Below, in pieces: positions 1 to 30,728 of a stretch of 64,000 nt of DNA (positions are counted from its first letter, which is position 1; every line of letters begins with the position of its first letter). Position numbers and translations under genes: made by a program. The notes below the pieces were generated by a model that was not told where the DNA came from, searched no databases, and saw only the letters and a program-made list of their open reading frames with translations. Source of the DNA: Chelativorans xinjiangensis (lineage in GTDB: Bacteria > Pseudomonadota > Alphaproteobacteria > Rhizobiales > Rhizobiaceae); assembly GCF_009812055.1 (NCBI RefSeq), contig NZ_WQNH01000004.1:124001-188000 (forward strand), in the 5' to 3' direction.

Positions 1-2928
1 CAGCCCGACGGCTCGGTGTCGATCAAGGGCGATCCCGATCACCCGGCCAATCTCGGCCGGCTCTGCTCGAAGGGCTCCGCCCTTGCCGAAACCCTCGGCC
101 ATGAGGAGCGGCTGCTTTACCCGGAGATCGGCGGCCGCCGCGCCGGCTGGAACGCCGCTCTCGATCTGGTGGCGCAGGAGTTCGCGGCGGCGATCGCCGG
201 GCACGGCCCCGATTCCGTCGCCTTCTATGTCTCTGGCCAGCTTCTCACGGAGGACTATTACGTCGCCAACAAGCTGATGAAGGGTTTTGTCGGCTCGGCC
301 AACATCGACACAAACTCGCGGCTCTGCATGGCCTCCTCGGTCGCCGGCCATCGCCGCGCCTTCGGTTCCGACACGGTGCCGGGAACCTACGAGGACCTGG
401 AACTGGCCGACCTCGTCGTGCTCACCGGCTCCAACCTCGCCTGGTGCCATCCCGTGCTCTATCAGCGGCTGGCCGCCGCCAAGGAAAAGCGCCCCGGGAT
501 GAAGGTGGTGCTCATCGACCCGCGCCGCACCATGACCGCCGACATCGCCGACCAGCATCTGGCAATCGCGCCGGATGGCGACGTGGCGCTCTTCGCCGGC
601 CTGCTGCGCTACATCGCCGAAAAGGGAGTTGTTCGAGGAGATTACGTCGAAAAGCATACAACCGGCTTCAACCAGGCATTGACTGCTGCCGGGCACCTGA
701 CGATAGACGAAGTGGCCGCGTCCACCGGCCTCCAGCCGTCCGAGATCGAAGCGTTCTACCGGCTCTTCATCGAACGCGAGCGCACGGTCACCGTCTACAG
801 CCAGGGCGTCAACCAGTCCGCTTCCGGCACGGACAAGGTGAACGCCATCCTCAACTGCCATCTGGCCACCGGCCGCATCGGCCGTCCGGGCATGGGCCCG
901 TTCTCCGTCACGGGCCAGCCCAACGCCATGGGCGGGCGCGAGGTCGGCGGGCTCGCCAACATGCTGGCCGCCCATATGGACCTCGAGAACGGCTCTCACC
1001 GCGACCTGGTGCAGCGCTTCTGGCGCGCCCCGCGCATGGCGGAAAAGCCCGGCCTCAAGGCCGTGGAAATGTTCGAGGCCGTGGCCGACGGGCGCATCAA
1101 GGCGCTGTGGATCATGGCCACCAACCCCGCAGATTCGCTGCCCGACGCGGACGCCGTGGAAGCGGCACTGAAGGCCTGCCCCTTCCTCGTTGTCTCCGAT
1201 ATAGCGGCCGAGACCGATACGCTGCGCCACGCCCATGTGAAGCTGCCGTCCACGGGCTGGGGCGAAAAGGACGGCACGGTGACGAACTCCGAGCGCCGCA
1301 TCTCCCGCCAGCGCGCCTTCCTGCCGTCGCCGGGCGAAGCGCGGCCGGATTGGTGGCAGGTTGTCGAAGTGGCGAGGCGCATGGGTTTTGGGCAAGCCTT
1401 CGCCTATGCGGACACGGCCGAGATCTTCCGCGAGCATGCGGCGCTTTCGGCACTGGAAAACGATGGCACGCGCGACTTCGACATCGGCGCCTGTGCGAGG
1501 GTCGATGCGGCGGAATACGAGGACTTGCAGCCGTTTCAATGGCCGGCGCCCGTCGCCACCACCCCCCTCTGCCCTGCCGGACATCTCCCCCACAAGGGGG
1601 GAGATCGGCTGTCACTACGACCTTCGCCAATCACAGACGTCGCAGAAATGGCGGGAAGCGCGAAGCTGCCAGTCTCCCCCGTTGAGGGAGGGCTATCGCA
1701 TATGGATTCTGAGTCCTTGATGGTACCCCCACCCCTCACCCCTCCCCTCAAGGGGGAGGGGGGCGAAGCCGTACTCGACCTGCCTCCCTCCCCCTTGAGG
1801 GGAGGGATTGAGGGTGGGGGTTCCGGCGAAGCCGGCAAAGACGACTCATATGCGATAGCCCCGCCCCTTGAGGGGGAGATGCCCGGCAGGGCAGAGGGGG
1901 TTACCTCGCGCTTCTTCGCCAACGGCAACTTCTACACCCCCGACCGCCGCGCCCGCTTCATCGCCGTCGCGCCGCAGGCACGACGGGTGACCGACGCCGA
2001 CTACCCCATGGTTCTCAACACCGGCCGCGTCCGCGACCACTGGCACACCATGACCCGCACGGCCAGGAGCGCCCGGCTTTCCGGCCATATGGCCGAGCCC
2101 TATGCCGAGATTCACCCCGAAGACGCCGCGCGCCTCGGCATCGGTGAGGCAGCATTGGTGCGGGTGGCAAGCCGCCACGGGGCCGTCCTCGTGCGCGCGC
2201 TCGTCTCGTCGAGGCAGCGCCGGGGCTCCGTCTTCGTGCCCATGCACTGGACAGACCAGTTCTCCGCCATGGGCCGCGTCGACGCGCTGGTGCCGTCCGT
2301 CACCGACCCTCATTCCGGCCAGCCCGCCTCGAAAAACGTCGCCGTCCGCATCGCCCGCTTCGAAGCCGAATACTACGGCTTTGCCGTCTCCGCCTCGCCT
2401 CCCGCCACCGACGGGCTCGACTATTGGGCGCTGGCGCGCAGCAAGGGCGGCTGGCGCCTGGAGCTTGCCGATGGCAAGCCGCTGGAGGCACCCGAGGCCC
2501 TCCTGCGCCGGCTCCTGTCCCTTGCCCAGCACGGCGTGGAGATCATCGCCTATCACGATGCGCGCCAGGGCAGCCACCGCATGGCCGCCTTCGACGGCGA
2601 ACGGCTCCTCGGCGCCCTCTACCTCTCAAGGACGCCTGTCGCCGCCTCGCGCGGCTTCGCCGTCGTGCAGCTCGGTGAGCCGCACCCCGACCCGCGCTCC
2701 CGCTACCGCGTCATCGCCGGCAGGGCAGGGGCCGACCGGCCGGACCCCGGCGCCATCGTCTGCTCCTGCTTCGGCGTCGGCGCCAACCAGATCGCCGCCG
2801 CCGCCCGCGCCGGCTGCACAAGCGTGGCGGCCGTCGGCGAGGCCCTGCAAGCCGGCACCAACTGCGGCTCCTGCCGGGCGGAGATCAGGGGGATCGTGGA
2901 GGCGAACCGGGCGGTCGCGGCGGAATAG
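1..2928 (+). CDS. nasA: assimilatory nitrate reductase catalytic subunit, 5' end outside the window
   Basis: Molybdopterin oxidoreductase that reduces nitrate to nitrite in the cytoplasm. The frame is open to the left edge, and the first visible residues (GDPDHPANLGRLCSKG) belong just after the missing N-terminal [4Fe-4S] cysteines. The Mo-bis-MGD domain follows, then the molydopterin-binding domain (after RFFANGNFYTPDRRARF), then a C-terminal BFD-like [2Fe-2S] domain with Cys921, Cys923, Cys955 and Cys958 in visible numbering; that C-terminal domain is typical of NasA rather than NapA. About 115 residues (roughly 520-634) between PFQWP and RFFANG look foreign: low complexity, Pro/Gly rich, and encoded by nested palindromes (see the repeat at 1562-1902). 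The frame stays open through them. Whether the enzyme tolerates this insert cannot be told from sequence. Confidence 0.93.
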   Translation, partial: QPDGSVSIKGDPDHPANLGRLCSKGSALAETLGHEERLLYPEIGGRRAGWNAALDLVAQEFAAAIAGHGPDSVAFYVSGQLLTEDYYVANKLMKGFVGSANIDTNSRLCMASSVAGHRRAFGSDTVPGTYEDLELADLVVLTGSNLAWCHPVLYQRLAAAKEKRPGMKVVLIDPRRTMTADIADQHLAIAPDGDVALFAGLLRYIAEKGVVRGDYVEKHTTGFNQALTAAGHLTIDEVAASTGLQPSEIEAFYRLFIERERTVTVYSQGVNQSASGTDKVNAILNCHLATGRIGRPGMGPFSVTGQPNAMGGREVGGLANMLAAHMDLENGSHRDLVQRFWRAPRMAEKPGLKAVEMFEAVADGRIKALWIMATNPADSLPDADAVEAALKACPFLVVSDIAAETDTLRHAHVKLPSTGWGEKDGTVTNSERRISRQRAFLPSPGEARPDWWQVVEVARRMGFGQAFAYADTAEIFREHAALSALENDGTRDFDIGACARVDAAEYEDLQPFQWPAPVATTPLCPAGHLPHKGGDRLSLRPSPITDVAEMAGSAKLPVSPVEGGLSHMDSESLMVPPPLTPPLKGEGGEAVLDLPPSPLRGGIEGGGSGEAGKDDSYAIAPPLEGEMPGRAEGVTSRFFANGNFYTPDRRARFIAVAPQARRVTDADYPMVLNTGRVRDHWHTMTRTARSARLSGHMAEPYAEIHPEDAARLGIGEAALVRVASRHGAVLVRALVSSRQRRGSVFVPMHWTDQFSAMGRVDALVPSVTDPHSGQPASKNVAVRIARFEAEYYGFAVSASPPATDGLDYWALARSKGGWRLELADGKPLEAPEALLRRLLSLAQHGVEIIAYHDARQGSHRMAAFDGERLLGALYLSRTPVAASRGFAVVQLGEPHPDPRSRYRVIAGRAGADRPDPGAIVCSCFGVGANQIAAAARAGCTSVAAVGEALQAGTNCGSCRAEIRGIVEANRAVAAE
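1562..1902. repeat. nested palindromic mosaic element inside nasA
   Basis: Three inverted-repeat pairs are nested. The outer pair (about 1564-1600 and 1861-1902) carries CCCTCTGCCCTGCCGG and its complement. The middle pair carries GGCTATCGCATATG (about 1693-1706) and CATATGCGATAGCC (about 1847-1860). The inner pair (about 1723-1763 and 1783-1826) carries CCCTCCCCTCAAGGGGGAGG-type arms. The element replaces what should be a short linker in NasA and adds a multiple of three bases without a stop. Arms with the same CCCC...AAGGGGG character occur at 30421-30491 and 30658-30728, so this is a member of a dispersed family. Confidence 0.8.
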
Positions 2929-2929
2929 T

Positions 2930-3014
2930 GAGTGGTGAATAGTGAATAGAGAGTAGTGGGTGGGCGAAATTGCCCGTCGCTACTCACTACTCACCATTCA
3001 CTATTCACTATTCA
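2930..3014. terminator. inverted repeat between convergent nasA and radC
   Basis: The spacer has GTGAATA-type units on the left and TATTCAC units on the right around a GGGCGAAATTGCCC core (2962-2975). It can fold into one long imperfect hairpin. Its place between two converging genes suggests a bidirectional terminator. There is no clear T-run, so this is an inference. Confidence 0.4.
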
Positions 3015-3015
3015 C

Positions 3016-3774
3016 TCATATCAACTGCAGCCCCTTCATGCTGGCATGCCCGTCCTTGCCGATGATGATGTGGTCATGAACGGTGATTCCCAGCGGCTCG
3101 GCCGTGGCGATGATCGTCCGCGTCATCTCGATGTCGGCACGCGAGGGCGTCGGATCGCCGGAGGGGTGGTTGTGGACGAGGATGATGGCGCTGGCGGAAA
3201 GCTCCAGCGCCCGGCGCACCACCTCGCGCGGATAGACCGGCGTGTGGTCGACCGTGCCTGTCTGCTGGCGCTCATCGCGGATGAGCAGGTTCTTCTTGTC
3301 GAGGAAGAGGATGCGGAATTCCTCGCGGGCCTCGTAGGCCATGGCCGCGCGGCAATAGTCGAGCACCTGTGCCCAGGAGGAAAGCACCTCCCTGCCGCGC
3401 ACCTCGGCGCGAAGCATGCGCTGGGTGAGGGCGGCGATCAGCTTCAGGTCGCGCGCCGCCGCCTCGCCGATGCCGGAGACTTCCTTCAGGCGGTGCTCGG
3501 GCGCGCCCAAAACCTCGCCGATCGAGCCGAACCGTTCGAGAAGCGCCTTGGCCGGCCCCTTGGTGTCGGCGCGCGGCACCGAGCGGAACAGCATCATCTC
3601 CAGAAGCTCGTAGTCCGATAGCGCGTCGCTGCCGGCCTCGGCGAAGCGCTGACGCAAGCGCTCGCGGTGGCCCTCATAGTGCTTTTTCTGCCCGGCCGCC
3701 TTGCCCGCCTTCGCCTCTTTGCCCGCGGGCTGAAACGCGCCCTCGCCGAAGAAACCCCGTTCGTCTTCCCCCAT
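3016..3774 (-). CDS. radC: RadC/JAB-domain DNA repair protein
   Basis: A 252-residue protein with an N-terminal helix-hairpin-helix-like region ([19 protein letters not shown], then [13 protein letters not shown] near 99-110) and a C-terminal JAB/MPN metalloprotease-like domain. The JAMM motif [14 protein letters not shown] lies at residues 201-214 and is intact. The family was linked to DNA repair, but its biochemical role is unsettled. It lies 36 bp downstream of map on the same strand, the order often seen in rhizobia (sfsA-map-radC). The ATG at 3774 fits; the Lys/Gly-rich first 30 residues are poorly conserved, so a later start is possible. Confidence 0.92.
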
Positions 3775-30417: not shown

Positions 30418-30420
30418 CCT

Positions 30421-30728
30421 TTCCTTCCCCCTTGCGGGGAAGGTGGGCCCGCCGGCTTGCCGGCGGGCTCGGATGGGGGTGGCCGCGCCCGCGTGCCGGC
30501 GTTTCAAAATTCAGCAAGAGCAATTCCAGGAAAAGTGGAAACCGGCTTTCCGTCCGGGATTGCGACAAAACAAGGAGTTAGACCAGCTCATCGATTCTGT
30601 GAAACGATGAACTGGTCTAAATAGCGCACCTACCGAATTTCAATCGTCGGCACGCGTGCTCGGCCACCCCCATCCGTCCACCCGCCTTCGGCGGCTGGCC
30701 ACCTTCCCCTCAAGGGGGAAGGAAAGGG
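30421..30728. repeat. nested mosaic element between convergent genes
   Basis: Outer arms (30421-30514 and 30637-30728) are inverted copies containing CTTCCCC/GGGGAAG hairpins, ATGGGGGTGGCCG and GCGTGCCG. The core at 30516-30621 is a full RIME-like unit (GAGCAATTCCAGGAAAAGTG, ACCGGCTTTCCGTCC, and the palindrome TTAGACCAG ... CTGGTCTAA). It takes up the entire 312-bp spacer between the DUF2336 gene and parE, so no gene is present; as RNA it could end both transcripts. Confidence 0.8.

Follow-up and report, generated by a model that had tools for sequence, protein, structure and literature searches.

Two nested palindromic repeats carried in frame by the nitrate reductase gene nasA of Chelativorans xinjiangensis

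The assimilatory nitrate reductase gene nasA of Chelativorans xinjiangensis contains an insert that consists of two dispersed repeats, one nested in the other. It lies near the left end of the 64,000-nt stretch of contig NZ_WQNH01000004.1 analyzed here (hereafter the window, from whose first nucleotide positions are counted), which belongs to a 5.69-Mb draft genome of 118 contigs (G000). We propose that both repeats are mobile palindromic elements that entered the gene stepwise and are now carried by it in frame, an account to which we assign a probability of about 85%. An original prediction, made from the window alone, had claimed that the nasA frame stays open through about 340 bp of nested inverted repeats and that these add roughly 115 residues between two conserved blocks. 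Both claims held at the level of the sequence, with an exact insert of 342 nt or 114 codons (1561-1902; Table 1), and the nest, treated there as one element, resolves into two of different age: an outer palindromic element and an inner element related to an insertion sequence (IS).

The nasA gene is a single plus-strand open reading frame (ORF) that enters the window at its left edge, ends at position 2928 and is uninterrupted across the repeat; its 5′ end lies 78 nt to the left of the window, giving a NasA protein of 1001 amino acids. Three pairs of inverted-repeat arms were found in the insert: 1563-1599/1864-1900 (37 nt, 95%), 1690-1704/1847-1861 (15 nt, 100%) and 1722-1764/1782-1824 (43 nt, 86%). 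The predicted RNA fold of 1560-1905 has an energy of –237 kcal/mol compared with –152 ± 5.4 kcal/mol for 100 dinucleotide shuffles (z –15.9), none of which was as low. A search of Rfam with the insert returned 33 matches, mostly to miRNA families and none reaching the gathering score, and we therefore rejected the possibility that it is a known structured RNA family. At the protein level, numbered from the window start, the Pfam domains Molybdopterin (46-459) and Molydop_binding (670-780) flank the insert (521-634). The closest solved structures to NasA are NapA nitrate reductases, and in the match to NapA structure 2jio the insert falls in the stretch that separates the aligned blocks (505 to 662 in the query, 524 to 579 in the chain).

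The outer element is about 155 bp long when uninterrupted, runs ACCCCCCTCTG...CAGAGGGGGGT and contains two hairpins of the type ATCTCCCCC-TCAA-GGGGGGAGAT. The copy in nasA is split into two parts, 1561-1687 and 1864-1902. The outer element of Mesorhizobium ciceri, used as query, gave 81 matches in G000, counted on both strands and amounting to about 40 places including nasA (40 of 166 candidates scored), and the combined insert gave 92 matches among the 40 candidates scored of 233.

At 176 bp, the inner element has no room for a transposase. Its ends read GGGCTATCGCATATG and enclose a big palindrome. When used as query, it matched in 6 of the 16 genomes of the genus, with 85 matches in G000, 90 in the sister species (G001), 43 in G006 and 3-5 in each of the remaining three; these numbers include both strands and come from no more than 40 scored candidates per genome. 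The pattern of its ends, searched in G000 with up to two mismatches, yielded 44 forward and 42 reverse matches versus 3 and 2 for the reversed control, and nine of the matches lie within about 85 bases of contig ends. Nineteen end places were read, and 10 of them show a different, mutually identical continuation that marks the end of an IS. A complete copy of this IS (L338, about 904-2256) encodes a 444-aa transposase matching NCBIfam NF033564 (ISAs1 family, E 3e-83) as well as Pfam DDE_Tnp_1_assoc and DDE_Tnp_1 (PF13808/PF01609). G000 holds at least 10 copies (L338 and the contig ends L332-L335, L337, L339, L345, L346 and L269). Since the 17-bp end CAGGGCTATCGCATATG is common to the inner element and the full IS, and since the IS encodes an ISAs1-family transposase, we assign the inner element as a miniature inverted-repeat transposable element (MITE) of the ISAs1 type. 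In the right flank of L338, the target copy that would be expected seems to be present as its reverse complement, which would fit an inversion of the hairpin tip.

Members of the ISAs1 family duplicate 8-10 bp of their target upon insertion. Around the MITE in nasA, a duplication of 10 bp is present (CCCGTTGAGG and CCCCTTGAGG, identical at 9 of 10 positions). We compared the 10-bp flanks of 32 other MITE end pairs, 17 from G000 and 15 from G001, some of them orthologous, and obtained a mean match of 6.3 positions versus 4.3 for shuffled pairs (maximum 5.2 in 1000); four pairs are perfect, and eight match at 9 or 10 positions. Two sites are available in both an empty and a filled state. A gene for an 895-aa protein is filled in G001 (duplication 9/10) and unfilled with an open frame in G000, and a gene for an HAD-like hydrolase harbors a second MITE copy in G000 (8/10, by eye) at a place unfilled in G001, where the empty site reads CCGTCGGCCG.

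The 10-bp duplication in nasA falls in the second hairpin of the outer element, other MITE copies are flanked by similar sequences (CCCCTTGCGG, CCCACGAGGG, CCCTTGTGGG and TCCTTGAGGG), and a CCCCC arm precedes all 10 IS ends read. Hairpins of this kind hold the IS and many of the MITE copies, which would account for the nesting. Judging from these flanks as they stand rather than against a genomic background, the nest is best explained by an ISAs1-type transposase that would prefer the hairpins of existing palindromic repeats.

To place the insert among relatives, we compared the linker that joins the conserved halves of NasA across 100 loci: 20 of the 30 from a first search (L029-L038 were dropped as partial or distant) and 80 from a search in which only the C-terminal part served as query. 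The latter are the best 80 of 573 relatives, so that close relatives are over-represented. Removal of L012 (same contig as L039) and L025 (RFF motif not found) left 98 loci, of which 20, labelled by an in-frame peptide motif, carry the outer element, 8 a scar, 1 another insert and 69 none; close homologues without the insert thus exist, a point that the original prediction had proposed to check. L101 was scored among the last because the motif cut its linker short at 35 residues, and actually holds a repeat-like stretch. The linker is exactly 10 residues long in 42 of the 57 loci outside Mesorhizobium and eight Chelativorans loci, and varies from 10 to 118 residues in Mesorhizobium and from 8 to 121 in those eight. 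Contrary to the earlier view of the insert as peculiar to this NasA, the outer element occurs in the linker of 17 of the 33 Mesorhizobium loci and of Chelativorans G008, in the same orientation and phase as in G000.

These linkers present a range of states. G008 has the outer element alone, G000 and G001 have outer and inner elements, and the linker of C. salis contains another dispersed repeat. No recognizable element was seen in the NasA linker of G007, G009 or G012, and half an arm is retained in those of G011 and L104; L014 and L104 are half-deleted remnants. In the sister species G001, the same nest occupies the same place minus 9 and 33 nt of the G000 insert, the larger loss removing the left arm of the hairpin along with the start of the MITE. 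The scars L047, L050 and L069 consist of a 24-bp palindrome, left by collapse of the outer element at its GGCC repeats, that is perfect in the first two and has one mismatch in the third. We rejected the idea that this palindrome is a widespread seed, as it was found with up to two mismatches in one of nine genomes (M. muleiense), at the NasA linker. An additional repeat-like stretch is common to the Mesorhizobium linkers L108 and L101 (peptides PSPLRGGSESALSEAKQASRGGVG and PSRLGGGSGSASSEARQASRGGVG, 93% in DNA) and in L108 adjoins the outer element; among the loci compared, other complete copies were not found, so that it is at most a candidate dispersed repeat.

The reading frames on the two sides of the linker agree in every one of the 100 NasA loci, and the 9- and 33-nt differences between G000 and G001 both keep the frame. 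The NasA frame is open in each of the 20 element-bearing linkers, the other five frames in 10, 2, 2, 4 and 1 of them. Among 60 dispersed outer copies, the six frames are open in 42, 38, 37, 27, 42 and 27, respectively; 42 copies are open in the NasA-equivalent frame, and 25 have an out-of-phase length. Nonsynonymous over synonymous substitution rates (dN/dS) between G000 and G001 were 0.067/0.097 for the insert and 0.028/0.182 and 0.036/0.133 for the flanks, values based on small counts (8 and 15 changes), and by this comparison the insert residues seem hardly constrained. In an AlphaFold2 model of NasA (39 sequences, mean predicted local distance difference test score, pLDDT, of 75.7), residues 547-662 show no secondary structure and a pLDDT below 50, with values of 25-32 over the insert. 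From the kept frame, the 9- and 33-nt differences and the conserved downstream domains, we infer that the insert is translated, and in its likeliest state it would form a disordered, tolerated loop of about 114 extra residues.

The search for such repeats within other coding genes, suggested by the original prediction, revealed in-frame copies in five further proteins. The HAD-like hydrolase of G000 contains two inner elements in frame, both missing from its G001 orthologue, and the 895-aa protein of G001, which has no Pfam or NCBIfam match, contains one, its G000 orthologue being open and empty. In pyruvate dehydrogenase E2 of both genomes, an inner element lies between the lipoyl and E3-binding domains. 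The same linker of the C. salis enzyme (L354) has a repeat-like stretch, SPLAGEVPAKRAEGGG...HPPRKGEGKG, at the place of the MITE in G000 and G001. Outer-type elements are in frame in CobN in six of the seven Mesorhizobium genomes with a match, G041 apparently having a second one; CobN reads the left half of the element in a different frame than NasA and the right half in the same frame. In M. amorphae CCNWGS0123 (G047; L310, L311), cobN is broken into two ORFs at the outer element, by either a frameshift in the hairpin or a sequencing error. An ABC ATPase of M. ciceri carries an outer-type element in frame after a motif that we take to be the P-loop. In NasA, E2 and CobN, the insertions lie between domains or aligned blocks.

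A large ORF spanning an element was not accepted as proof of in-frame insertion. Twenty long ORFs were obtained from protein searches, 18 with an outer and 2 with an inner element, and all but L195 were scanned against Pfam. Five of these 19 have domain matches, in each case with the element before the first domain and probably upstream of the real start, and 14 have none, of which L193 alone was followed further. The spanning ORFs L003, L266, L267 and L272 (G000) and L131, L292, L296 and L300 (G001) were not accepted either, the coding signal lying on the other strand or in another frame or being weak on one side. In Mesorhizobium G045 (L177), an outer element immediately precedes a xanthine-dehydrogenase-type molybdoenzyme, whose frame stays open through it, so that automatic start calling could annotate the element as protein. 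Among the 42 places besides NasA at which inner copies of G000 were examined, three are convincingly within genes (HAD twice, E2 once).

Several observations weigh against the proposed account or limit it. In-frame copies are the exception: only 3 of 80 sampled dispersed copies are in phase and open and 11 are in phase with a stop, the remainder being out of phase, on opposite strands or without a two-sided coding signal; the same context test, which was right about both sides of the gene at 272 of 400 control positions, found 19 of the 20 NasA loci in phase. These 20 loci have a common ancestry and were recognized by an in-frame motif, so that their open frame supports the account without testing it cleanly, and the counts behind the dN/dS values are low. 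The duplication in nasA has one mismatch, and half of the MITE flank pairs (16/32) match at no more than 6 of 10 positions. CCCC is present within 26 nt to the left of the MITE in only 20 of 32 copies, so that hairpin targeting is at best a preference. For the outer element, a scan of 60 copies for target duplications of 2-11 bp gave no clear excess, and we rejected such a duplication for it.

How the outer element came to occupy so many NasA linkers can be read in two ways, as an old insertion with repeated loss or as repeated, independent insertion at a hotspot. In a NasA tree calculated by a quick method with the linker left out (53 of the 98 loci: 33 from Mesorhizobium, 11 from the genus of the window and 9 others), its presence requires at least 13 changes on the starred branches, which do not distinguish gain from loss, and a single gain at the base of Mesorhizobium would need 14 losses among the 33 loci. 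The 13 or more changes suit a hotspot, as do the other sequences found in the same linker (the dispersed repeat of C. salis, the repeat-like stretches of L101 and L108) and the fact that the Chelativorans outer copies of G000 and G008 are not mutually nearest. However, 20 of the 21 recognized linkers of more than 35 residues hold the outer element in one orientation and phase, the other being that of C. salis, which argues that no other arrangement is hidden among the remaining loci, and half-deleted remnants exist. Moreover, the nearest neighbor is another NasA copy and not any of the 60 dispersed copies for 17 of the 20 NasA copies (16 when judged on the spacer), a comparison in which the dispersed set comes from only six genomes and most NasA copies face no dispersed copies of their own genome. 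These nearest neighbors favor descent with loss in Mesorhizobium. We consider the hotspot rather unlikely; for Chelativorans, a separate gain is possible.

The remaining alternatives concern the nature of the insert. It might be an ordinary lineage-specific linker domain of NasA, GC-rich and repetitive by chance and selected for function; it does occur in NasA of two genera (20/98 loci) and is kept in frame. The original prediction saw a possible refutation in the same insert turning up across unrelated genera, and the outer element does recur in Mesorhizobium; this is, however, a related genus with a patchy distribution of the element, and the insert is not thereby an ordinary protein domain. 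The same DNA is dispersed through genomes with few sampled copies in frame, sister species lack the insert or have scars, C. salis has a different dispersed repeat in the same linker, dN/dS of the insert is high and AlphaFold finds no fold, all of which makes a selected domain highly improbable. The extreme predicted RNA hairpin could instead hinder translation or permit bypassing, so that the insert would be present in the gene and absent from the protein, either removed from the mRNA or skipped by the ribosome. Bypass would need neither length changes in multiples of three nor a stop-free frame, no Rfam match reached the gathering score, and by analogy a Rickettsia guanylate kinase bearing a palindromic element is reported, in the passages available, to be translated and active (PMC2229807); we judge removal or bypass highly improbable. 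An artefact of assembly or sequencing, also raised by the original prediction, could be suspected in a draft of this many contigs, several of which end in the ISAs1 element. The separately assembled G001 carries this nest at the identical position, where it differs from G000 by substitutions and two length changes, so that the insert is not an assembly artefact, and we give this explanation hardly any weight.

We therefore return to a pair of mobile palindromic repeats, one within the other, that nasA carries in frame, and suggest the following course of events. As comparison of the linkers indicates, the outer element of about 155 bp would have entered between the conserved halves of NasA, in Mesorhizobium probably through one early entry with many later losses and in Chelativorans perhaps through a separate entry. 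Before G000 and G001 split, the anatomy of the nest suggests, the second of the outer element's hairpins received the 176-bp ISAs1-type MITE, with a duplication of 10 bp of target; the frame would have survived this event since 176 + 10 = 186 nt equals 62 codons. The two elements thus appear to differ in age, the outer being widespread at this site in Mesorhizobium and the MITE being younger. The ISAs1-type transposase may prefer the G/C-rich hairpin tips of other palindromic repeats, a preference by which repeats end up inside repeats. The frame would then be read straight through into a long disordered surface loop that the nitrate reductase tolerates, with selection purging frame-breaking changes and scarcely constraining the residues, and deletions between palindromic arms may excise the loop and leave in-frame scars.

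Table 1. Features of nasA and its nested insert; positions are those of the window
Feature	Position	Strand	Basis
nasA, assimilatory nitrate reductase catalytic subunit	1..2928	+	ORF; Pfam Molybdopterin, Molydop_binding, Fer2_BFD
Entire in-frame insert, 342 nt = 114 codons, NasA residues 547-660	1561..1902	+	G000/G001/G008 and linker comparison; AlphaFold2 pLDDT
Outer element, left part	1561..1687	+	82% over 128 nt to M. ciceri NasA element; more genomic copies
Outer element, first hairpin, type ATCTCCCCC-ACAA-GGGGGGAGAT	1583..1605	.	Sequence
Target-site duplication, left copy, 10 bp CCCGTTGAGG, in second hairpin of outer element	1678..1687	+	Flank comparison
Inner element, 176-bp MITE of ISAs1-family IS	1688..1863	+	Dispersed copies in G000; ends common with IS
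MITE left terminal repeat, GAGGGCTATCGCATATG (family form CAGGGCTATCGCATATG)	1688..1704	+	End-pattern search, reads of ends
MITE large internal palindrome, arms 1722-1764 and 1782-1824	1722..1824	.	Inverted-repeat search
MITE right terminal repeat	1847..1863	-	End-pattern search, end pairs
Target-site duplication, right copy, 10 bp CCCCTTGAGG	1864..1873	+	Flank comparison
Outer element, right part, ends CAGAGGGGGTT	1864..1902	+	95% over 37 nt to M. ciceri element
Hairpin type regarded as candidate target of ISAs1 elements, CCCCTTGAGGGG			

Two other places in the window deserve mention. Directly past the nasA stop codon (2930-3016), an inverted repeat of GTGAATAGTGAATAG / CTATTCACTATTCAC units is visible by eye, which may be a terminator or a further repeat family. 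The same arm type as in nasA had been proposed for the intergenic element at 30421-30728. This proved to be a different element, which has in common with the insert only short G/C-tract arm segments (22 nt at 91%; 43 nt at 79% to the outer element). It forms a mosaic of three nested inverted repeats (30418-30727) with outer arms of 29 nt at 97%.

Rickettsia palindromic elements (RPEs) are read in one preferred frame. No single frame is preferred here: more than one frame is open among the dispersed outer copies, and in CobN the left half is read in a different phase than in NasA. Few of the sampled copies look in frame at all. According to the accessible text of the sources, RPEs sit in frame in many Rickettsia genes, elements resembling the Wolbachia palindromic element (WPE) sit in frame in Wolbachia recombination genes, and both are short dispersed palindromic repeats apparently tolerated in conserved genes (PMC10969869, PMC2229807, PMC4224334). 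The repeats described here share this behavior, being dispersed palindromes that are also in frame in conserved genes (NasA, CobN, the ABC ATPase, the HAD-like hydrolase and E2), and the resemblance to the Rickettsia process noted in the original prediction is upheld. What sets them apart is the nesting of two elements that are unrelated to each other, the link of the inner one to an ISAs1 IS, with a duplication of 10 bp, and their hosts, Chelativorans and Mesorhizobium with genomes of 3.3-7.4 Mb. We would thus call the system RPE-like in effect, likened by behavior rather than by sequence comparison, with a different motor and a nested architecture.

Other repeat families offer partial parallels, as far as the consulted portions of the literature go. 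ERIC and the 107-bp Correia/NEMIS elements are MITEs with open frames that are fused in frame to genes, and 5′-TA-3′ termini are marked for both (PMC2229807), whereas the inner element ends CAGGG..., makes a 10-bp duplication and appears to prefer palindromic targets. Repetitive extragenic palindromic sequences (REPs) are said to be IS targets in Pseudomonas, Neisseria and Sinorhizobium (PMC3733652); here, by comparison, an ISAs1-family IS and its MITE are both found in palindromes, one event being in frame inside a gene. Rhizobia are described as having mosaic palindromic repeats, the Rhizobium intergenic mosaic elements and the bacterial interspersed mosaic elements (RIME/BIME; Osteras 1995, as referenced in PMC2873474), of which RIME is named intergenic; the outer element is likened to it by description rather than by sequence. 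In the open literature searched, outside which most subscription papers lie, no in-frame palindromic repeats in Rhizobiales and no ISAs1 MITEs in hairpins were found. In-frame palindromes themselves are known from Rickettsia, Wolbachia, ERIC and Correia; new are the host organisms, the ISAs1 link, the putative hairpin homing and the repeated in-frame turnover at one site.

Rickettsia and Wolbachia are the best-known carriers of in-frame palindromic repeats; here such repeats occur in conserved enzymes of relatives of the rhizobia that have much larger genomes. A single site displays a series of states, from no element through outer and outer plus inner element to scar. The mechanism is testable, since transposase family, 10-bp duplication and hairpin target can all be read from the sequence, and NasA provides a growth phenotype, nitrate as sole nitrogen source, for the cost of a 114-residue selfish insert. 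More tentatively, and at somewhat less than even odds, the palindromic repeats of Mesorhizobium and Chelativorans may keep adding and removing in-frame disordered linkers in core enzymes (nitrate reductase, pyruvate dehydrogenase E2, cobaltochelatase), in Chelativorans through ISAs1-driven homing of MITEs into older hairpins. If true, this would represent an ongoing and reversible evolution of protein linkers in free-living bacteria, in which one repeat marks a safe landing site for the next.

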